From Verrucomicrobiaceae bacterium (GTDB taxonomy: Bacteria > Verrucomicrobiota > Verrucomicrobiia > Verrucomicrobiales > Verrucomicrobiaceae), in assembly GCA_019694165.1 (NCBI GenBank), contig JAIBCL010000006.1, positions 62,001 through 126,000 of the forward strand: a DNA stretch of 64,000 nt, given 5' to 3'. Below, in pieces: positions 2,203 to 47,208 of the stretch. The notes under the pieces are model-generated. The model made no database searches and had not been told where the DNA came from. It was given only the letters and a program-made list of their open reading frames with translations. Each line of letters starts with the position of its first letter. The first letter of the stretch is position 1. Both the position numbers and the translations under genes were made by a program.

Positions 2203-4046
2203 GTGACGAGCAAGCGGCGCGGCCAACTCCGGAAATCGTCCAGGGGCACGCAGACTTGATTGGCGATTCACGCATCAAGCAGGTGGCCGCTCTTGAAGCA
2301 GTGGAGGGTGGCGCTTGGTCGTTCAAGCTCACCGCTCTGGTCCCGCAGCCCAATGATGAGGGTCTGCCTGCCGAGGTCGTGCTCCGAGCTGTGATTCCTC
2401 CTGACTACCCTTTTGCACCTGTCGAGGTTTTTGCGGAATCACCAGAACTACGCGGCTTCCATCATCAGGACGCCGAGACACACAAGCTCTGCCTGCGCGA
2501 GGAGGGACTGGCACCCTGCAATCAAGACCGGCTGTCACTCTACATGAGTTGGGCGCTCGAATGGCTGTATGACGCGGCCGCTGGACAACTTCTGCCTTCA
2601 GGCCACCCCTACGAGCTTCCCGATTTCAGCCGCAAGCTGCTCAAGGACAAGCCACCCTTCCAGAAAAAGTTATGGTTCTGCGAATCACCGGTATCATACC
2701 CGCATTGGAAAGATCGTCAGGGCCAGACGGGCAAGGTGGAACTGATTGAACTCGCAAATGCTCCGGCTGTTCTGGCAGCTTCGTTCACATTCGGCAAAGA
2801 GGTTATTTGGAAGTTTCCAGTCTCACCAACATTCGATGCCGCCGGCACCAAGACCGAAGGGAGATGGCTGGCGCTCCCCTCTCTGGCATTCTTCCGCAAC
2901 CGGCCGCCTCAGCGATTTGGCGAACTTCGACAAATGTGCGCCACATCCGGCATCGATTTGAATTCCCTGCTGCAAGACCTGTGGGCATCAGACTCTGGAT
3001 CAAGCGTGTGCAGCATCCTGTTGGTTGGCGCTGGCATTCCGCGTATCGCCGGGGAGCCCGCCTATGAGATGCACTGGCAGCCGCTCGCGATCAGGAACGT
3101 GAATTGTGAAGCGGGCCTGAAGGCAGCTCACAAAGGACCGGTCAAACGCCGCAAGGCATGGAGAAAGCTGAAAGCATTGGATCGATTTGCGGACGACACT
3201 GAAATCCCATGGGTATCGTGCGAGAACATCGCTCCAGAGCGTCTGTATTCACGGGGATCGCTCGCTTCCGGCTTCAGGACTCAGAAGATGGCGCTTGTCG
3301 GATGTGGGGCGATTGGTTCCTGTCTCGCCGATCACCTTGTCCGCTCCGGGACTCAGGATTTGACACTGATTGACAAGGAAGACTTCGAGCCAGGCAACCA
3401 CGCGCGTCATGTCCTCACTGGACATTCATTCCAAGTCAGCAAGGCAACAGCCCTGAAGCAACACCTGCAATCTGGCAGCATCCATACGCGGCTGCGCTCG
3501 TTTAGTGTCACGATCCCAAACTTCCGCTCTGCCATCGGGGGCGATGCCTTGGCTGCTCTGCGCGAGTGCGATGTCATCCTGGATTGTTCTGCCCACGAAT
3601 CTGCTTTCCGGTGGTTGAGCAGGTATGGAGCGGACGAGAAAAAGGCAGTCATCCACATGTTCATCTCCTTCGACGCAAGTTTGCTCGTCCTCGTGTTCTC
3701 GGGCAGGGATGTCCCGGCAAGGCTTGCACTCACGAGCTTCGAGCGGCAATCGCTTTCAGGCTCCCTGACAAGTCTGAGTCAGGCAGACCAGGATTTGTAT
3801 TGGCACGATCCTGAAAAGGAACGGTTGGTGATTCCAGGCGCGGGCTGCTGGCACGCCACCTTCCCCGCACGTTGGAATCACATCCAATGCCTGGTCAGCA
3901 CCGCGCTCGACATGATCGAACAGCGGCTTGCCAAACCACAACCGTCATCAGGATTCGTGGCGATTGCGAAGCGCCATGACATAAGCCATACAACACACGG
4001 CTCGACGCCAGTAGTGGAATGGATCTATCGTTCCCCTCACCGATGA
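2199..4046 (+). CDS. E2-E1 fusion, Cap2-like ubiquitin-transfer enzyme
   Basis: A 615-residue fusion in the order E2, linker, E1, as in Cap2 of type II CBASS. The N-terminal E2 domain has the signature PPDYPFAP at 67-74 and a catalytic-type cysteine at 98 in THKLCLREE, followed by YMSWALEWLYD. The middle (about 150-345) is a linker or adaptor region without an obvious motif. The E1/ThiF adenylation domain starts near 363 with GCGAIG at 368-373 for ATP, acidic IDKEDFEPGNHARH at 391-404, and a second catalytic-type cysteine at 550 in GAGCWHATF, where Cap2-type E1 domains carry theirs. Expected reaction: adenylate a C-terminal glycine, then pass it as thioester from C550 to C98. The stop overlaps the JAB start by four bases. 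Confidence 0.93.
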   Translation: MSDEQAARPTPEIVQGHADLIGDSRIKQVAALEAVEGGAWSFKLTALVPQPNDEGLPAEVVLRAVIPPDYPFAPVEVFAESPELRGFHHQDAETHKLCLREEGLAPCNQDRLSLYMSWALEWLYDAAAGQLLPSGHPYELPDFSRKLLKDKPPFQKKLWFCESPVSYPHWKDRQGQTGKVELIELANAPAVLAASFTFGKEVIWKFPVSPTFDAAGTKTEGRWLALPSLAFFRNRPPQRFGELRQMCATSGIDLNSLLQDLWASDSGSSVCSILLVGAGIPRIAGEPAYEMHWQPLAIRNVNCEAGLKAAHKGPVKRRKAWRKLKALDRFADDTEIPWVSCENIAPERLYSRGSLASGFRTQKMALVGCGAIGSCLADHLVRSGTQDLTLIDKEDFEPGNHARHVLTGHSFQVSKATALKQHLQSGSIHTRLRSFSVTIPNFRSAIGGDALAALRECDVILDCSAHESAFRWLSRYGADEKKAVIHMFISFDASLLVLVFSGRDVPARLALTSFERQSLSGSLTSLSQADQDLYWHDPEKERLVIPGAGCWHATFPARWNHIQCLVSTALDMIEQRLAKPQPSSGFVAIAKRHDISHTTHGSTPVVEWIYRSPHR

Positions 4047-7265: not shown

Positions 7266-9650
7266 ATGGCCGCGAAATCTACAGCCCCTACTTCCGTCGG
7301 CCCGCCAGCGTGGCTGGGTTTTGGGGGATGCGTTGTCGGCGCGGTCGCCGCTTGCCTGTGGTTTCCGGATTCGGTCTGGCGAAGTATGTTGCCGGAGGTT
7401 CCGGGCCGGTTCTTTCTCCCGGCGTTCGCGTCCGCGTTCGCCGCAGGTTGGCTGTGTGGACTCTGCGGCCCTCGGAATGATTCGCGCGGGACGGAAGGCG
7501 GGGCGCAGTCGCGCGCGTCAATCGCGGGTCTGCTGACCTCGCTCGTGGTATGTATCGCGGCGCAGCGCGCGAGTGGCGGGCTGCGTGGGGTCGGGGTGAC
7601 GCCGCTTTTCGCCGCAGCGTTGCTCGGGTTCGGGCTGTTGCCATCAATGCTCTTCGCCAATCTCGGTGCGGGCCTCTCGCGTCGCGTCCGCGAACGCGAA
7701 TCGTTTCTCGGCGGAGCTTGGGGGAAGCGAGAACGAGTGTTCGCGTTCGCTGCGAGCGCCGTTTTGCCAGCTGCCGCCGTGCTGGTGTGGCCGACGGTTT
7801 ATTTTGCGGACAAGCTAATGGCGAAGGCTGTCGTGGCAGTGCTGCCGGCCGCGCTGCCCTCTCCGCCTCCGAAGCCCGAGCCGCCGAAGCCGCGCTACGC
7901 GAAGCCCGAAGGATTCGACGCGGCCAATGCGTGGAAGCGGGTGGTGCTCAAGGAGGACGTGATCGCTGACGTGGTCGGCGGCTCGCCGTTCGTCCTCTCG
8001 CACCGGGAGGATCGCGTCGCCGCGCTGGTCCGCCGCAACGGGAAATCGTTGCTCGTGGCCCGGCATTTGATCGATCCGGTTGAGGATCGTCAGGTCGAGA
8101 TCGCGGTGGCGGTCGGGCCGATGGCGTGGTCGCCCGACGACCGTCGGCTCATCGCGGCGACCGCCGACGGCGGTTTCGTGGTGATCGATTGGGAGCGCGC
8201 GACTGTGATCCCCCTCCCGATTCCAAAGGCTGATCGGAAGACCTTGAACGACGTGATCTGGTGGCGAGACGAGGACGTAGTGGTGACGTTCCGACAAGGC
8301 CAGCCGCAAGCGCTCTCGCTCGACACGCTGAGGCTGTCGCCGCTGAGCGAACACCCAGTTTGGGCGAAGCTCACCGAAGCCGACCGGAGCCGCGTCTTCG
8401 CGTCGGTTGACCCGCCGCATCCATCGGTGCCGAAGGTGCGCTACGCATTCGCACGCGACGGCGACGGCCTGTCGCTGCTGGCGCGCGACGCGGAAGCGCA
8501 CTACAGCCGTGTGCTGCTCCCCGGCATTTCCTCCTTGCAAGTGGATTTCTGGAACCGCGATGGCAGCATCGTCTTCTTCGCCGAGCGCGAGCGGCTGCGC
8601 ATCCTCTACATGGGGCTGCGCGACGCGCCGACGCTGCGCTTCGCCGCGGAGAGCCGCGAGGGCTTCCCCGCAACCGACGAAGTGAAGGCGGCGATCAAGA
8701 ATCGCACCATCGAGTGCTTCATCACCGAGCCAATCGTCAACCCGCTCAATGGCAAGACCGTCGCTGGCGACGTGGCACACGCAAAAGGCGTGGCCCGTGT
8801 CATTGCTGCCGAGGGGAAGGCTGCGACAATTTGGGTGAGCGAGGAACGCGGGCCGATCCGCGAAGGCGACGTGATCACGCTGCCGCGCGTCGCTTCTCCG
8901 AACGGCGGCGCGCCGCTCTCGCCGACATGGTTCGCGGTGCTTACCAAGGCGGACGCCAGTCAGGACATTCCGCGTCGTGATAGCGAGAAGCCGTCGGCGA
9001 CGACGAACGATGCCGCCACCGCGCCAACTTCCGCCCAGGTGTCGCCCACCACATCGAAGCCCGACGCCCCATCGAGCCGCCCGGTTTACGACGAGCTGAT
9101 GAAGCATAAGGCCGAATGGATGCCAAAGAAGGAGAAGAACGCGCCGTCAGCGGAAACGAAGCCGCCGCAACCATCGTCCGTGCCGCAGACGAAGAGTGCA
9201 AAATCCACTCCCCCGCCGACCTTCGCGTCGAAGGTGCCGCCGCTGAAGGCGAACGCCCCACCCATCGAGCGCGTGAAGCACTTCATCACCCTGCACCACG
9301 CGAAGGTCAGCGACCGTGACATCGACGGTATCGCGGCCGACTACGGGGCCGTCGCACACGTCAACGGCAAGGACATGACCCGCGAGGATGTCCGCCGCGA
9401 CGAGCAGACCGTTACGGCGAATTCGGTCAGCCTCGTGGAGCAGGTGGACGGCCCCATCGCCGTTACCACGCAGCAGAACAGCCGCTACCACGCGGAATAC
9501 GGCATTTCGTTTGAATTGATCACGCGCGACGACAACGGCGGCCAGGGATCGGCGCTGGTGGAAATGGACGTGCTGCTGACCAGCGCGGGGCCGAAGATCG
9601 TCGCCCGCAAGACGCGAGTTTACAAAAAAGGCCCCGCCGGGAAGCGTTGA
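7266..9650 (+). CDS. Membrane protein with beta-propeller-like middle and NTF2-like C-terminus
   Basis: A 794-residue protein of unknown role. The first 190 residues hold about five TM segments, for example WLGFGGCVVGAVAACLWF and LLTSLVVCIAAQ. A proline-rich linker (PSPPPKPEPPKP) leads to about 350 residues that read like a TolB/WD-type propeller: MAWSPDDRRLIAATADGG and similar blades. After a long Pro/Ser/Lys spacer (about 575-665), the last 120 residues resemble an NTF2/SnoaL-like fold (IERVKHFITLHHAKVSDRDI to LVEMDVLLTSAG). The next gene starts two bases after the stop, so the two are co-transcribed. Domain calls rest on pattern only. It sits between an R-M system and a SIR2 pair, so a defence role is possible but untested. 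Confidence 0.7.
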   Translation: MAAKSTAPTSVGPPAWLGFGGCVVGAVAACLWFPDSVWRSMLPEVPGRFFLPAFASAFAAGWLCGLCGPRNDSRGTEGGAQSRASIAGLLTSLVVCIAAQRASGGLRGVGVTPLFAAALLGFGLLPSMLFANLGAGLSRRVRERESFLGGAWGKRERVFAFAASAVLPAAAVLVWPTVYFADKLMAKAVVAVLPAALPSPPPKPEPPKPRYAKPEGFDAANAWKRVVLKEDVIADVVGGSPFVLSHREDRVAALVRRNGKSLLVARHLIDPVEDRQVEIAVAVGPMAWSPDDRRLIAATADGGFVVIDWERATVIPLPIPKADRKTLNDVIWWRDEDVVVTFRQGQPQALSLDTLRLSPLSEHPVWAKLTEADRSRVFASVDPPHPSVPKVRYAFARDGDGLSLLARDAEAHYSRVLLPGISSLQVDFWNRDGSIVFFAERERLRILYMGLRDAPTLRFAAESREGFPATDEVKAAIKNRTIECFITEPIVNPLNGKTVAGDVAHAKGVARVIAAEGKAATIWVSEERGPIREGDVITLPRVASPNGGAPLSPTWFAVLTKADASQDIPRRDSEKPSATTNDAATAPTSAQVSPTTSKPDAPSSRPVYDELMKHKAEWMPKKEKNAPSAETKPPQPSSVPQTKSAKSTPPPTFASKVPPLKANAPPIERVKHFITLHHAKVSDRDIDGIAADYGAVAHVNGKDMTREDVRRDEQTVTANSVSLVEQVDGPIAVTTQQNSRYHAEYGISFELITRDDNGGQGSALVEMDVLLTSAGPKIVARKTRVYKKGPAGKR

Positions 9651-39621: not shown

Positions 39622-39927
39622 TCAGATCTCGCGCAATCGCTTCATGATCGCCTTCGGATCCTGGCGGAGATCGAACAGCGCATGAAGCACGATCCCTCGC
39701 GGCTCGCTCACATAGAACAGCCCGTAGTTCCGGTTGGACACGAGAACCCGCCGCACATTCCCTCGATGAACGACGGGGCCGATGCGTGGAAACACTTCCA
39801 GCAGGCGGACCGAAGACAGCACTTCCTCGTAGAAGCGATCACCCGTGCCTTCCTCCCATGTCTCCAGCCTTTCGTACAGACGCTGGACATCAGCCTCCGC
39901 CCCCAGGGTCCAGACTGCGGCCCTCAT
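39622..39927 (-). CDS. RelE/ParE-family toxin
   Basis: A 101-residue protein with the RelE/ParE layout: an N-terminal strand and long helix (LGAEADVQRLYERLETWEEG), RFYEEVLSSVRLLEVFPRIG, then the beta-sheet NVRRVLVSNRNYGLFYVSEP and a C-terminal segment IVLHALFDLRQDPKAI. Family members inhibit translation or gyrase. Its ATG overlaps the antitoxin stop by four bases (39,924-39,927), the usual antitoxin-first order. The pair lies between two broken yaeQ copies. Confidence 0.88.
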   Translation of the reverse strand: MRAAVWTLGAEADVQRLYERLETWEEGTGDRFYEEVLSSVRLLEVFPRIGPVVHRGNVRRVLVSNRNYGLFYVSEPRGIVLHALFDLRQDPKAIMKRLREI

Positions 39928-40160
39928 GCGCGACCGGCGGCGATGCGCTTCTTCAACTCCAGAATCCCTGCCGTCACCTCGTCCGTGGTGCGCGTGGCGT
40001 TCGGGGTTGCCTCGTGCCCGGCAAGGCGTTCATCCAGCAGCGCCGCCGTCTCTGGGCTGATGGAGCAGTCACGCGACACATCATTCATCAGCTCCCACAC
40101 GAGCCGCAGTTTTTGATCGACCGTCAGAGCACCCAGCGCGGGCATGGTTTCGAGAATCAT
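39924..40160 (-). CDS. Antitoxin of the RelE/ParE pair, addiction-module component family
   Basis: A 78-residue protein from ATG 40,160 (the upstream ATG at 40,187 only adds nine residues). It matches the short antitoxins once called putative addiction module component: LTVDQKLRLVWELMNDVS, then ISPETAALLDERLAGHEATP and a C-terminal helix VTAGILELKKRIAAGRA that would wrap the toxin. Translationally coupled to the toxin by an ATGA overlap. Confidence 0.85.
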   Translation of the reverse strand: MILETMPALGALTVDQKLRLVWELMNDVSRDCSISPETAALLDERLAGHEATPNATRTTDEVTAGILELKKRIAAGRA

Positions 40161-40240
40161 GGCGCGAAAATACGAGCCGCGAATCATTCAGACAAGCGAT
40201 TCCTCAACCCGCCTGCCAAGCTGGACCGCCCGTTCAATAT

Positions 40241-42865: not shown

Positions 42866-42888
42866 GTGTGTTCTAAACTAGAGCACAC
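42866..42888. promoter_or_regulatory. Operator of the XRE/DUF2075 operon
   Basis: An imperfect palindrome with arms GTGTGTTCT and AGAGCACAC (8 of 9 paired) around AAACT. It lies 41 bases before the XRE start. Read as TGTGTTCTAAACTAGA..., it matches the site at 46,904-46,924 on the opposite strand in 17 of 21 positions. That site lies in front of the second XRE gene of this patch, so both operons probably answer to the same repressor. Confidence 0.7.
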
Positions 42889-42929
42889 ATTCCGCAGATT
42901 CTCGCTAAATAATGGAGGCGTTGTTTCCG

Positions 42930-43166
42930 ATGCCTGCCAGTTCGAAGAACATCGTTGGTGCCCGTGTGCAAGCCGCGCGTTTGCGCGCGAAGCCGCCGTT
43001 GACGCAGGCGCAACTCGCGGAGGCACTTTCGAACGAAGGTGTCGCCATCGACCGGGCTGGCATCTCAAAGATCGAGATCGGTGATCGGTCGGTCTATGAC
43101 TTCGAGGTAAAGGCGCTCGCAAAAGTGCTCGGCGTGACGCTCGATTGGTTGCTCAAGGACGGTTAG
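42930..43166 (+). CDS. XRE-family regulator of the DUF2075 operon
   Basis: A 78-residue protein from ATG 42,930, preceded by GGAGG 12 bases upstream; the ATG at 42,912 has no such site. Its HTH reads LTQAQLAEALSNEGVAIDRA, then GISKIEIGDRSVYDFEVKAL and LGVTLDWLLKDG. It starts 41 bases after the palindromic operator and ends two bases before the helicase gene, so the two form an operon. It differs clearly from the second XRE protein (46,626-46,853). Confidence 0.85.
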   Translation: MPASSKNIVGARVQAARLRAKPPLTQAQLAEALSNEGVAIDRAGISKIEIGDRSVYDFEVKALAKVLGVTLDWLLKDG

Positions 43167-43168
43167 CC

Positions 43169-45199
43169 ATGCCAGCATATTACCGGGCACAGCTTGGCGA
43201 CTTCGTTGCGCGATCGGATGCCGAGTTGCTCGGTCATCTCGCAGCGGCTCAGGGGCGCGAGGGTCACACGTCTGCTTTTACGTCGCAGACAGTGGCCTGG
43301 CAGGAACAGATCACTGCGCTTCGTCGAATGGCATCTCACCTGATCTGCAAACAGCCCAACCGAAGTGCCTGGTATGTGCTGATCGAGTATCCCATTCCTC
43401 GCCGCCAGAAGCGGATCGATGCCGTACTGCTCCATCCATCACGAATCTACTGCCTGGAGTTCAAGACAGGCGATCAAGCTGTGAGTCGAGCTGCTTTGAA
43501 TCAGGTGGAGGACTATGCACTCGATCTTCGCGATTTCCATGCAGCCAGCCTTGGATGTCAGATCGTGCCCGTTCTCGTAGTGAATCAGGCGCGGACTACG
43601 GCTGTTCTCCAATCGAGTGCGACCAGCGACTTGGTGTGGCGACCTGTGATGTCCAGCTACGATGATCTCGCCGTACACATTGAACACATTGAGTCCAGCG
43701 CCGAGGGAGGGAGCGCCTGTCCTTCAGCAGAAAGTTGGGACAGCTCTTCCTATCGACCTGTGCCCACCATTCTGGAAGCAGCAGAAGCGTTGTATGCTGG
43801 GCATGATGTTCGCGACATCGCCTCGGCGGGCGCTGATCCGGGCAATCTCACTCGCACATCGGAGTTCTTGTTTCAGATCGTCGAGCGCGCGAGGCGAAAC
43901 AACGAGAAGGTCATCTGCATCGTGACGGGGGTGCCAGGAGCGGGCAAGACCTTGGCGGGACTGAATCTCGCGCACAATCCAGCAATCCGATCAGCGGGAT
44001 TGCCGAGCGCCGTATTTCTTTCGGGCAACGGACCACTCGTGCGCGTGGTGTCTGCGGCGCTTGCCACCAGCAGCCAGGCTAGAAGCGATGCACGGCGGGA
44101 AGTAGGCACGTTCATTCAGAACGTTCACACTTACATTCGAGACGCGCTTCGTTCACCGTCACCACCACATGAGCATATCGTGATCTTTGATGAGGCACAG
44201 CGTGCCTGGGATGCTACCCAGGTTTCACGCAAGTTCCGACAGCTACGCCAGCGTGGTTTCGATGTGCTTGGTGCCAGCTTCGACTCCATCTCAGAGTCGG
44301 AAATGATGCTTCGTGTGATGGACAAACACGAGGGCTGGGCCGTGCTCGTCGCGCTAGTCGGCGGCGGTCAGGAGATCAATGATGGCGAAGCAGGACTCGA
44401 GGAATGGGGCCGCACTCTCGCCGCCTCGTTTCCACACTGGAAAGTTGCCGCCTCTCCTGTGGTATTGCCGAGTGGACCCGGACTCTCGGGTCATCGCTTG
44501 TTCCATTCTGATCATGGTGATGCTCCCGCTGTTGAAAGTGCCGATGCTTTGCACTTGTCAGCAAGCGTTCGATCGTATCGCGCCGAATCACTTGCCGCAT
44601 GGGTTGATGCGGTACTCGCTGGCGACGGAAATACAGCCAGGACAGAAGCACAGCGGCTCTCCAGCTATCCTCTCGTGATCACACGGAGCTTGGATGCTGC
44701 AAAGGAATGGCTGCACAGTCATCGGCGCGGCGAGCGGCGCGCAGGACTGCTTGCCAGTGCAAATGCTCTTAGACTCCGTGCCGAGGGCATTGAGCTGAGT
44801 CCAGGCTTTCGTGGTAACAAAGGCCAATACGAGAATTGGTTTCTCAATGCCGATGGCGACTTTCGCTCATCAAATCAGCTCGAAGTCGCCGCGAGTCAGT
44901 TCGAGTGCCAGGGCTTGGAGATTGACTGGAGCTGTCTCTGCTGGGGCGAAGACTTTCTGTGGCAATCCAGCGGCGGCTGGTGCTACTCACGGCTTAACGG
45001 CGAGAAACGTGGTCGTGTGCCGCGTGAGATCAAGCAACGCTACTGGCGCAACACTTACCGTGTGCTGCTCACCCGCGCCCGTGAAGGCATGGTGCTCTTT
45101 GTGCCGCACGGTGACGAATCCGATCCGACTCGACCAACGGCGCTGTTCGACGCCACTGCCCGCTATCTCGAAGCCTGCGGAGTGCAATCATTGGGCTGA
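43169..45199 (+). CDS. DUF2075 helicase with N-terminal nuclease-like domain
   Basis: A 676-residue protein from ATG 43,169 (43,145 would overlap the XRE gene). The N-terminal 120 residues carry a PD-(D/E)xK-like pattern: E74, D84 in RIDAVLLHP, and E97-F-K99 in IYCLEFKTG. The ATPase has Walker A GVPGAGKT at 254-261, Walker B IVIFDEAQ (D341, E342), and a C-terminal motif YWRNTYRVLLTRAREGMVLF typical of DUF2075/Schlafen-like superfamily 1 helicases. Expected role: ATP-driven nucleic-acid translocation coupled to cutting. Convergent with the C5 methyltransferase operon; the facing stops are six bases apart. A restriction partner of that methyltransferase is a reasonable inference. Confidence 0.85.
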   Translation: MPAYYRAQLGDFVARSDAELLGHLAAAQGREGHTSAFTSQTVAWQEQITALRRMASHLICKQPNRSAWYVLIEYPIPRRQKRIDAVLLHPSRIYCLEFKTGDQAVSRAALNQVEDYALDLRDFHAASLGCQIVPVLVVNQARTTAVLQSSATSDLVWRPVMSSYDDLAVHIEHIESSAEGGSACPSAESWDSSSYRPVPTILEAAEALYAGHDVRDIASAGADPGNLTRTSEFLFQIVERARRNNEKVICIVTGVPGAGKTLAGLNLAHNPAIRSAGLPSAVFLSGNGPLVRVVSAALATSSQARSDARREVGTFIQNVHTYIRDALRSPSPPHEHIVIFDEAQRAWDATQVSRKFRQLRQRGFDVLGASFDSISESEMMLRVMDKHEGWAVLVALVGGGQEINDGEAGLEEWGRTLAASFPHWKVAASPVVLPSGPGLSGHRLFHSDHGDAPAVESADALHLSASVRSYRAESLAAWVDAVLAGDGNTARTEAQRLSSYPLVITRSLDAAKEWLHSHRRGERRAGLLASANALRLRAEGIELSPGFRGNKGQYENWFLNADGDFRSSNQLEVAASQFECQGLEIDWSCLCWGEDFLWQSSGGWCYSRLNGEKRGRVPREIKQRYWRNTYRVLLTRAREGMVLFVPHGDESDPTRPTALFDATARYLEACGVQSLG

Positions 45200-45205
45200 C
45201 GTGAA

Positions 45206-45481
45206 TTAAAGTTCTTCCCACTGCTGCCGCGCTGGTTGCCAATACTCGATGGAACTGCATCCCCAAGCGCCGACACCAAAATCATCAAGCGGCGCAAAGG
45301 CTCGTTCGTCGCCGCAAGTGTCCGCGACACCTTCTCCGCACACGCGACCATCGTCATCCACAAGGCGGAAGCGATGCACCAGAAGCTCATCTTTTTGCTC
45401 CGAGTAGCTGCGGCTGCACACGGCAGACGGTTTGCCTCGCGGGTCTTCGGTTGTCGTGTAGTCGAGTGTGAGTTTCCACAT
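45206..45481 (-). CDS. Small protein downstream of the C5 methyltransferase
   Basis: A 91-residue frame starting MWKLTLDYTTTEDPRGKP and ending EYWQPARQQWEEL. It contains HRFRLVDDDGRVCGEGVAD and AFAPLDDFGVGAWGCSSIEY, a pattern I have seen in small uncharacterised bacterial proteins with a conserved LDDFG. It starts 26 bases after the methyltransferase stop and is probably in the same transcript. No catalytic motif. It could modulate the modification system; this is only a guess from position. Confidence 0.6.
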   Translation of the reverse strand: MWKLTLDYTTTEDPRGKPSAVCSRSYSEQKDELLVHRFRLVDDDGRVCGEGVADTCGDERAFAPLDDFGVGAWGCSSIEYWQPARQQWEEL

Positions 45482-45507
45482 GCCACGATCAATTTGAGTG
45501 ACAAACT

Positions 45508-46629
45508 TTACGCCGCAAGCGGCACCGCGTTTCCGATCACGCGGTATTGATGGGTGCGCGCTATGGGGAACCGAAACCAATCAGGGAATGTCTGCACACG
45601 AGCGGCCTCGCGCGGGGTGAGGCTGCGCTGCTGGGTGGGATGGGTGAACATGAGGCCGTCCTTGCTCATGTGGGCGACGATGGTGCTGCACGGACGGTTC
45701 CGATGCTGGCGGGTGTAGCGATCCTGGAAGCTGGACTTGTCGTAGGGGAACTCGAATTCCACTCCGCGGTCCCTAATGGCTTGCCTGGAGTTCTCACCTT
45801 CACGGAGCTTCGCGAAGTCGCGCAAGTCGCGTTCGCTGTGTGGACGGGATTCATGGGCCGTGAGCGGGATGTCACGATTCACTTGCAGCACCCGGTAGAT
45901 GAAGTGGCGTCTGTTTCCTCCGGTATGGCGAGCGCGGCGCGTGAGGTCGTACTCCATCGCCTGCGCTCCACCGGGCGAGGCCAGCGCCGGCAGGTCCATG
46001 ATGGCATCGCCGAGGGTGGCACCGACGATGGCCCTTGGCGCCGGATCGAGCTGACCACCAAGGAAACCAGGAACGTCAAGACGGATGCCAATGAAGAGCT
46101 GCCGCTTTCGATTCTGCGGCACGCCGAGCTTCGTGGCGTCCTCTTCTCGGGGCACGACGCGATAGCCGAGAGATCGACCTTCCGCCTGAACGCGCGTGAA
46201 GTATTCGCCGCCGCCAGCACTGCGGATGCCGAGCACGTTCTCCATCACAAACACTTTGGGCTTGAAGTGTGCGACGAACTTCAGGAACTCGCGATAGAGA
46301 TGCCGGCGCGGGTCTTCGACGAGGCGTTTGCCGTGATTCGAGCCATCGACCTGCCGCGCTTGCGAGAATCCCTGGCATGGAGGACCGCCGACGATGACAT
46401 CCACCTCGCGGGTGCCGATGAGCCGCTCCAACTCCCGTGGCGTGAACTTCGTCAGGTCCTTCTCAAGCGCGTGGGGCACGTTGGGAAAGTTTGCTTTGAA
46501 AACCGTGACGGCCTCGTGATTGAAATCAATGGCAGCGAGACACCGAAACTCCGCGCGCTCCATGCCGAGCGAGAATCCACCGCAGCCGCAGAACAGATCG
46601 ATGAAAGTGGGCTTGGGCACGGCCTTCAT
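45508..46629 (-). CDS. C5-cytosine DNA methyltransferase
   Basis: A 373-residue Dcm-type enzyme with all core motifs: FIDLFCGCGGFSLG (I), GGPPCQGFS with catalytic Cys85 (IV), FVMENV (VI), GVPQNRKRQLFIG (VIII), a compact target-recognition region (about 210-300), and RVIGNAVPLAA (X), where it stops at once. It methylates cytosine C5 in an unknown short site. Its ATG overlaps the XRE stop by four bases (46,626-46,629), a layout seen with controller proteins of R-M systems. No classical restriction endonuclease is next to it; the facing DUF2075 protein is the candidate. Confidence 0.93.
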   Translation of the reverse strand: MKAVPKPTFIDLFCGCGGFSLGMERAEFRCLAAIDFNHEAVTVFKANFPNVPHALEKDLTKFTPRELERLIGTREVDVIVGGPPCQGFSQARQVDGSNHGKRLVEDPRRHLYREFLKFVAHFKPKVFVMENVLGIRSAGGGEYFTRVQAEGRSLGYRVVPREEDATKLGVPQNRKRQLFIGIRLDVPGFLGGQLDPAPRAIVGATLGDAIMDLPALASPGGAQAMEYDLTRRARHTGGNRRHFIYRVLQVNRDIPLTAHESRPHSERDLRDFAKLREGENSRQAIRDRGVEFEFPYDKSSFQDRYTRQHRNRPCSTIVAHMSKDGLMFTHPTQQRSLTPREAARVQTFPDWFRFPIARTHQYRVIGNAVPLAA

Positions 46630-46853
46630 AGATCGACCCCCTCGCAGAGTTCGGCGGTTGTGATGCCCAGCGCCTTGGCGAGACGCGCCAAGTTCTTGAT
46701 GCCGGGATTGCGATTGCCACGCTCGATGTCGCTGACGTAGGTGCGGTTGATGTCAGCGAGTTCCGCGAGTTTCTCCTGGGAAATGCCGGCGGCGTCACGA
46801 TGGCGGCGCAGGCTGCGGCCCAGTTTGACGAGGAGAGGATCACGCTTTGGCAT
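46626..46853 (-). CDS. XRE/controller-like regulator of the C5 methyltransferase operon
   Basis: A 75-residue protein from ATG 46,853 (46,880 adds only a random-looking lead). The HTH reads LGRSLRRHRDAAGISQEKLA then INRTYVSDIERGNRNPGI, very like R-M controller (C) proteins and SinR-type regulators. It overlaps the methyltransferase start by four bases. The operator at 46,904-46,924 lies 51 bases upstream. C proteins typically time methyltransferase and restriction expression. Confidence 0.87.
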   Translation of the reverse strand: MPKRDPLLVKLGRSLRRHRDAAGISQEKLAELADINRTYVSDIERGNRNPGIKNLARLAKALGITTAELCEGVDL

Positions 46854-46903
46854 CCGCTGAGACTGCCAAATTGTCGGCAATTAGACCACGGACGATGAGT
46901 GAC

Positions 46904-46924
46904 AATGTTCTAGTTTGGAACACA
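46904..46924. promoter_or_regulatory. Operator of the C5 methyltransferase operon
   Basis: Contains TGTTCTAGTTTGGAACACA, with TGTTC and GAACA half-sites as a dyad. Its reverse complement matches the operator at 42,867-42,887 in 17 of 21 positions. It is upstream of the XRE/methyltransferase operon read leftward. The shared site ties the two convergent operons together. Confidence 0.7.
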
Positions 46925-47072
46925 ACGTTTTCGCCTGCTCTTTGCGCGGGTGGCGAAGGCGGCATCGTTTGTCACCGAGTGCCCACACGGCTGACCAGCC
47001 TCGGAGTCTGTCCGGCAAATGAGTCCAGTCATCACAGTCCTCACGACAGGTGTCGGGGCGAACGGGCCACTT

Positions 47073-47208
47073 CCCCCTCACTGCAGCCCTCTCCCAAAGG
47101 GAGAGGGAGCAGGACGAGGTGCCGCTCGAACTCGCCAAATCTGCTCTGCGAAAGGCGCGGCAGCGCCAGCGTCTCCCTCTCCCACGGGGAGAGGGCTGGG
47201 GTGAGGGA
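47073..47208. repeat. Inverted-repeat element family A, copy 2
   Basis: A 136-base element nearly matching the one at 20,197-20,334: the same CCCTCTCCC-AAA-GGGAGAGGG and CCCTCTCCC-ACG-GGGAGAGGG hairpins at the two ends, and the same GAGCAGGACGA and GCGGCAGCGCC inner pieces. The middle 40 bases differ. The left terminal arm has two changes (CTGCAG for CCCCAG). It lies in the 631-base gap between the XRE gene and ychF. That gap otherwise holds the operator, the core at 47,254-47,277 and no gene. Confidence 0.85.

Follow-up and report, generated by a model that had tools for sequence, protein, structure and literature searches.

A dyad operator shared by a nuclease-helicase operon and a truncated methyltransferase operon, probably under the control of one XRE regulator

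The locus consists of two convergent operons within the window, which is the whole stretch of 64 kb of DNA that was analysed. The forward operon encodes an XRE regulator (XRE1) and a nuclease-helicase, and the reverse operon encodes a second XRE regulator (XRE2), a C5 cytosine methyltransferase and a small protein (Table 1). This gene order agreed with the preliminary description, as did the separation of the two stops (45,199 and 45,206) by six bases, but the methyltransferase turned out to be truncated, and a C-box in the second promoter had been missed. Each XRE gene indeed has an operator upstream, with most likely starts at 42,930 for XRE1 and 46,853 for XRE2; an alternative ATG of XRE1 at 42,912 abuts the putative -10 element. 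A Pfam search with the small protein gave no match, and a search of the locus for RNA families and tRNAs found none. Just outside the locus, a gene for a ParE/RelE-like toxin and one for a putative antitoxin were recognized by eye from the open reading frame list (39622-40187, reverse strand). A G+C-rich dispersed repeat at 47000-47200 recurs at other places in the genome as about ten partial copies.

Table 1. Features of the locus, with positions in the window
Feature	Position	Strand	Description
Operator 1	42869..42885	+	dyad TGTTCTAAACTAGAGCA, 13/14 to TGTTCTA-N3-TAGAACA; upstream of XRE1
Putative -10 element TAAATA	42906..42911	+	20 nt after operator 1
XRE1, putative HTH_3 regulator of the nuclease	42930..43166	+	Pfam HTH_3 4.9e-8
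PDC-S41 / SLFN-g3 (DUF2075-type) nuclease-helicase	43169..45199	+	PDC-S41 3.8e-228, PF09848 2e-73
Small protein, 91 aa	45206..45481	-	most likely start 45,481
C5 cytosine methyltransferase, 373 aa	45508..46629	-	PF00145 1.2e-60
XRE2, C-protein (restriction-modification controller) family	46626..46853	-	Control_protein 5.7e-20
Putative -10 element TCTAAT, TGG before	46880..46885	-	20 nt after operator 2
C-box ACTCATCGTCCGTGGTCT	46883..46900	-	predicted cognate site of XRE2-type controllers; score 22.9
Operator 2	46906..46922	-	dyad TGTTCCAAACTAGAACA, 13/14; upstream of XRE2-methyltransferase operon

The two 21-mers around the operators (42,867-42,887 and 46,904-46,924, on opposite strands) were identical at 17/21 positions, which confirmed the earlier count; a match of 16/21 of the first 21-mer to itself at its own place is an effect of the dyad itself. 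On both strands of the 64-kb window, no further non-overlapping match of at least 15/21 to the 21-mer of operator 1 was found. A 20-base consensus matched the window only at the two operators (0.01 expected), a somewhat circular result because the consensus was derived from these operators themselves. Each operator has one mismatch to the ideal dyad, and the runner-up places in the window reached 10/14. In the whole genome of 7.8 Mb, three places had at most two mismatches, and the places with one mismatch were operators 1 and 2. At the stringency of one mismatch the genome has no further copy, and the shared operator is real and specific. Chance is no serious explanation of the dyad pair. The TGTTC and GAACA arms, which we take to resemble some LexA boxes, could point to the box of a general regulator, but with only two one-mismatch copies in the genome, and with a dyad that follows the XRE1 family across the phylum, such a box or a chance resemblance is extremely improbable. 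A LexA/SOS box was rejected on account of too few genome sites.

The dyad was found mainly with XRE1. The nearest relatives of the nuclease (L019, L020 and L021; 76, 69 and 67% identical) have XRE1 in front in 3/3 cases, with the identical 17-mer TGTTCTAAACTAGAGCA upstream of it. A protein search with XRE1 through 388 genomes of the phylum gave matches in 22 genomes. Among 14 homologues from other genomes with at least about 44% identity, found by protein alone and not by the dyad, nine have a dyad of at least 12/14 upstream (L090-L096, L098, L100), and five with 45-48% identity have none there (L097, L111, L112, L114, L116). Homologues below about 44% identity are mostly without dyad, and the presence of the dyad in XRE1 relatives co-varies with D47/A49 beside the recognition helix. 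XRE1 relatives also adjoin the dyad in L058 and L059, which are not independent evidence for the motif because a pattern search was their source. No dyad was found with XRE1 relatives of Deinococcus plasmids and phages. The window's own genome yielded a single XRE1-type protein at E<=1e-6, and near-matches in 14 genomes revealed no additional operons of a wider XRE1 regulon; the extra near-matches inspected in G056 lay mostly within genes. Of 21 viral contigs with the dyad pattern, judged chance-like on a rough estimate, none had an XRE1 or helicase relative.

XRE2 is a different kind of regulator. Its top PDB matches were C.BclI and C.AhdI, with C.Esp1396I also found, and it has both the family sequence of a C protein (by the PADLOC Control_protein profile) and a C-box upstream of its own gene. 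Homologues of XRE2 carry C-boxes and not the dyad, and a profile built from these C-boxes scored 22.9 at 46,883-46,900, against 11.3 at the next best place in the window. Judged by its sequence and its site, XRE2 is a canonical C-type controller with its own C-box. XRE1, in contrast, gave a weak Control_protein match (1e-4) and a sole PDB match to dh434, a 434-repressor variant, and its operator differs; it falls outside the C proteins as defined by family sequence and GACT C-box. It nevertheless resembles a C-protein-like autogenous controller in its own-promoter operator, the conservation of this operator across homologues and its predicted activator spacing. The earlier claim of an operator shared by the two operons was supported, with a correction as to its owner: the dyad is the putative cognate site of the XRE1 family only, and an operator common to both XRE proteins was rejected because XRE2 homologues carry the C-box and not the dyad. 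The claim of two different controllers was borne out, with XRE1 paired to the dyad and XRE2 to the C-box.

Consequently, the methyltransferase promoter carries both an XRE1-type operator and an XRE2-type C-box. In L205, where XRE2 is 89% and the methyltransferase 80% identical, the promoter has the same C-box without the dyad and its similarity to the window stops beside the dyad; the dyad has thus been added to what is otherwise a usual C-protein promoter. We found no other genome whose methyltransferase promoter has the dyad intact. L161 has an 11/14 site at this promoter, which is indistinguishable from chance, in a genome without XRE1 match.

The promoter geometry bears on how XRE1 acts. 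In nearly all XRE1-family promoters, a TGN-TAnnnT-like -10 element lies exactly 20 nt past the dyad; at this offset the nine promoters outside the window clade had a -10 match sum of 43/45, compared with a maximum of 25 over 2000 shuffles. In three close relatives the -10 element of operator 1 reads TAAATA or TAAATG, and an offset of 19 would fit this clade as well. A -10 element at offset 20 would place the dyad centre near -41.5, a class II activator position and the classical position of activators touching the -35 region. Because of this distance from a conserved -10-like element, XRE1 is most likely an autogenous activator. At operator 2, TGG-TCTAAT lies at exactly offset 20, the unique best offset (-10-like match 4/5); in a fuller -10 profile, 6% of the window positions score as well as it does, and we regard this element as suggestive support for activation by XRE1 rather than as proof. 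Having a copy of its operator at activator spacing here, XRE1 should co-raise transcription of the methyltransferase and XRE2. One regulator, XRE1, probably switches both operons, and most likely it co-activates them.

XRE1 could instead be a repressor that silences both operons until a phage signal arrives, which we consider rather unlikely. Many XRE regulators act as repressors, activator-like spacing can also be compatible with repression of a weak promoter, and a second dyad 33-55 bp downstream, near the start codon, suggests a repressing site in L120, L121, L122 and L125. However, the first dyad centre lies at about -41.5, the usual activator position, in nearly all promoters, and no additional site is evident near the start codon in the window. 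At high regulator concentration, the second dyads of L120, L121, L122 and L125 could serve for repression, a behaviour known from C-proteins.

The forward operon encodes a protein matching the PDC-S41 profile over its full length (residues 10-683 on 3-653 of 657), which places it in this family. It combines an N-terminal PD-(D/E)XK domain (D84, E97-F98-K99, Q112) with an SF1-like helicase (Walker A G254-T261, D341-E342); D84, E97-x-K99, Q112, Walker A and D341-E342 were invariant in 33 sequences. A NERD match in this protein (4e-4) was below the cut-off. The AlphaFold model had a pLDDT of 81 (87.6 for the N-terminal domain), and its helicase matched UvrD (Z 18.3, rmsd 4.1 over 329) and SLFN11 (Z 17.5, rmsd 3.8 over 281). 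The matches of the N-terminal domain model were mostly nucleases, with Cdn1 (Z 9.7, rmsd 4.2 over 142), Can2 (9.2) and McrBC (7.7). PADLOC catalogues PDC-S41 as a single-gene phage-defence candidate, and the protein is a predicted phage-defence nuclease. Across the phylum, most members of the family (about 39% identical) lack an XRE1 match within 1.5 kb.

XRE1-family genes precede several kinds of nuclease genes. The PDC-S41 nuclease-helicase lies downstream in the window, L019-L021, L120, L125 and L127, an SRA-HNH nuclease in L122, L123 and L130 (by Pfam) and in L121 (by the same N-terminal sequence), and an HNH PtuB-like nuclease in L119, L124 and L126. The best reading of XRE1 is thus that of a controller dedicated to single nuclease genes.

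The C5 methyltransferase of the reverse operon (METHYLTRANSFERASE) has 373 aa, whereas its full-length relatives have 535-544 aa and head MTase-MutL/GHKL-Z1-DUF4420-AIPR operons (MzaB-E in PADLOC). Iyer et al. 2008 (PMC2292703) reported restriction operons with a GHKL component. The XRE2-methyltransferase part shares 77-80% identity with the first gene of such MTase-MzaB-MzaC-MzaD-MzaE operons, also known here as Mza-like or MutL(paraMORC)-Z1 operons. The window differs from them in its truncated methyltransferase and in the absence of MzaB, MzaC, MzaD and MzaE beside it, which leaves it outside the Mza-like class; the window's genome yielded no relative of MzaC. Motifs I, IV, VI, VIII, IX and X appear intact by eye through GNAVP, and the C-terminus is missing. 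The methyltransferase operon of the window appears to be the truncated front part of a Mza-like restriction operon.

A comparable truncation was found in L019, where the XRE1-nuclease-small gene cassette lies within a Mza-like operon. One flank consists of the methyltransferase to about residue 372, and the other of Z1 from residue 631 (84%), DUF4420 (88%) and AIPR (78%), so that the cassette (bounds 3849 and 6498) stands in place of the C-terminus of the methyltransferase, of the MutL gene and of residues 1-630 of Z1. At the DNA level, similarity to the intact operon (83% identity) starts near position 3,849, roughly 11 bp upstream of the dyad. L019 has neither XRE2 nor a second dyad, and its methyltransferase adjoins the cassette. 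Both truncations fall in motif X, after GNAVP in the window and after GNAV in L019, and the two methyltransferases were split apart in a FastTree phylogeny (support 1.000), so either the truncations arose independently or one of the bodies has been replaced. At 45508-45540 in the window and 6498-6530 in L019, these phylogenetically separate methyltransferases end directly behind GNAV, and the same small gene comes next. L020 has a truncated XRE2 before the small gene and has lost the methyltransferase, but kept the nuclease and the small gene. In L021, a Vsr mismatch endonuclease gene (8425-8943, reverse strand) converges on the XRE1-helicase operon, where other close relatives have methyltransferase pieces. 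L019, L020 and L021 are MAG contigs, in which chimeras are possible. Within the family, the small protein was found only in genomes having XRE1-nuclease; on plasmids it lies close to genes for transfer or plasmid functions, and no annotation there links it to a methyltransferase or the helicase cassette.

The preliminary description would have been refuted by operons that never occur together, and this was not the outcome: 4/4 of the closest cassettes converge on pieces linked to C5 restriction-modification (a methyltransferase in the window and L019, a truncated XRE2 in L020, Vsr in L021), but among them the window alone has the shared operator intact. In another reading, the second dyad would be a non-functional recombination scar, the methyltransferase operon would be decaying and the operons would be mere neighbours. 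The methyltransferase is truncated, the same kind of operon has decayed in L020, the promoter similarity with L205 breaks beside the dyad, and the dyad could mark a junction, as the L019 cassette begins about 11 bp upstream of its own. Operator 2, however, matches at 13/14, in the correct orientation and with the exact 20-nt spacing to a -10-like element, and the methyltransferase frame and catalytic motifs are intact up to GNAV, which makes a scar improbable.

The claim that the operons form one restriction-modification system was only partly borne out: the shared operator speaks for it, and cassettes without adjacent methyltransferase elsewhere and the Mza-like origin of the truncated methyltransferase speak against it. 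In its full form, the methyltransferase would mark self, the ATP-driven nuclease-helicase would cut unmarked DNA and XRE1 would balance the two. We consider this unlikely. The operator is common to both operons, the methyltransferase is kept beside the cassette in the window and L019, the nuclease and helicase residues are invariant, and CglI/NgoAVII provide a precedent of ATP-dependent restriction arms with C5 methyltransferases (PMC4267653). On the other hand, L021, L120, L125 and L127 have the cassette without adjacent methyltransferase, L020 lost the methyltransferase and kept the nuclease and small gene, the methyltransferase lacks the region past GNAVP, and PADLOC names PDC-S41 as a single-gene candidate system. 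A more far-reaching proposal, equally tentative, is that the XRE1-nuclease-helicase-small gene cassette is movable and repeatedly replaces the ATP-driven arm of Mza-like operons, cutting the methyltransferase after GNAV, and that here it added its own operator and yielded a two-controller restriction-modification-like system by arm exchange.

The explanation that accounts best for the whole, and which we hold to be reasonably probable, is that two defence modules were joined and wired together, with XRE1 controlling both. XRE1, the PDC-S41 nuclease-helicase and probably the small protein would form a self-contained cassette. As XRE1 accumulates, it would bind operator 1 and activate its own nuclease operon; through operator 2, directly upstream of the C-box at activator spacing, it would raise transcription of the methyltransferase and XRE2 alongside the nuclease. 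XRE2, via its C-box overlapping the spacer and -10 element, may then trim or modulate the methyltransferase promoter. The sites with their specificity in the genome, the family footprint, the C-box, the truncation and the L019 insertion are observed; that XRE1 binds at the two operators and acts there as an activator is inferred, as would be any functional coupling between methylation and cutting.

This circuit is C-protein-like, with parts assembled from two different defence systems. In Esp1396I-type C-protein systems, operators lie at the nuclease and methyltransferase promoters (PMC3758141). The likeness to C-protein control that had been proposed holds in this respect: a small HTH controller precedes a toxic nuclease, a shared operator lies at both promoters, and XRE2, with its family sequence and C-box, is a member. 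Unlike in C-protein type II systems, XRE1 is not a C protein by its PDB match, its operator bears no relation to the GACT C-box, there are two controllers, and the nuclease is an ATP-driven PDC-S41 protein. The latter matches PDC-S41 over its full length (E 3.8e-228), but here it is placed under XRE1. CglI and NgoAVII likewise combine a C5 methyltransferase with ATP-driven helicase-nuclease restriction (PMC4267653), but there the R and N proteins are separate and have PLD/B3 and DEAD-Z1 domains. The locus offers a testable example of a defence module that would keep control beside another by bringing its own operator. Furthermore, methyltransferases truncated at the same codon next to the cassette prompt the question of whether restriction arms can be exchanged.

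The XRE1 family combines a well-defined operator and promoter geometry before several predicted nuclease kinds, SRA-HNH included, and a single search with the motif could therefore uncover defence genes that lack annotation. A literature search on PDC-S41, DUF2075 in defence and XRE-controlled SRA-HNH found nothing relevant. The HNH nucleases in L119 (816-1487), L124 (6783-7487) and L126 (6488-7216) are weakly PtuB-like and have the same controller, with no PtuA-like gene noticed alongside. Dyad-bearing XRE1-family regulators precede SRA-HNH in L121 (7099-7425), L122 (6938-7183), L123 (6393-6719) and L130 (near 7169). These SRA-HNH nucleases are likely modified-cytosine-dependent restriction enzymes, and the XRE1-SRA-HNH loci possibly represent an uncatalogued family of regulated type IV-like enzymes.
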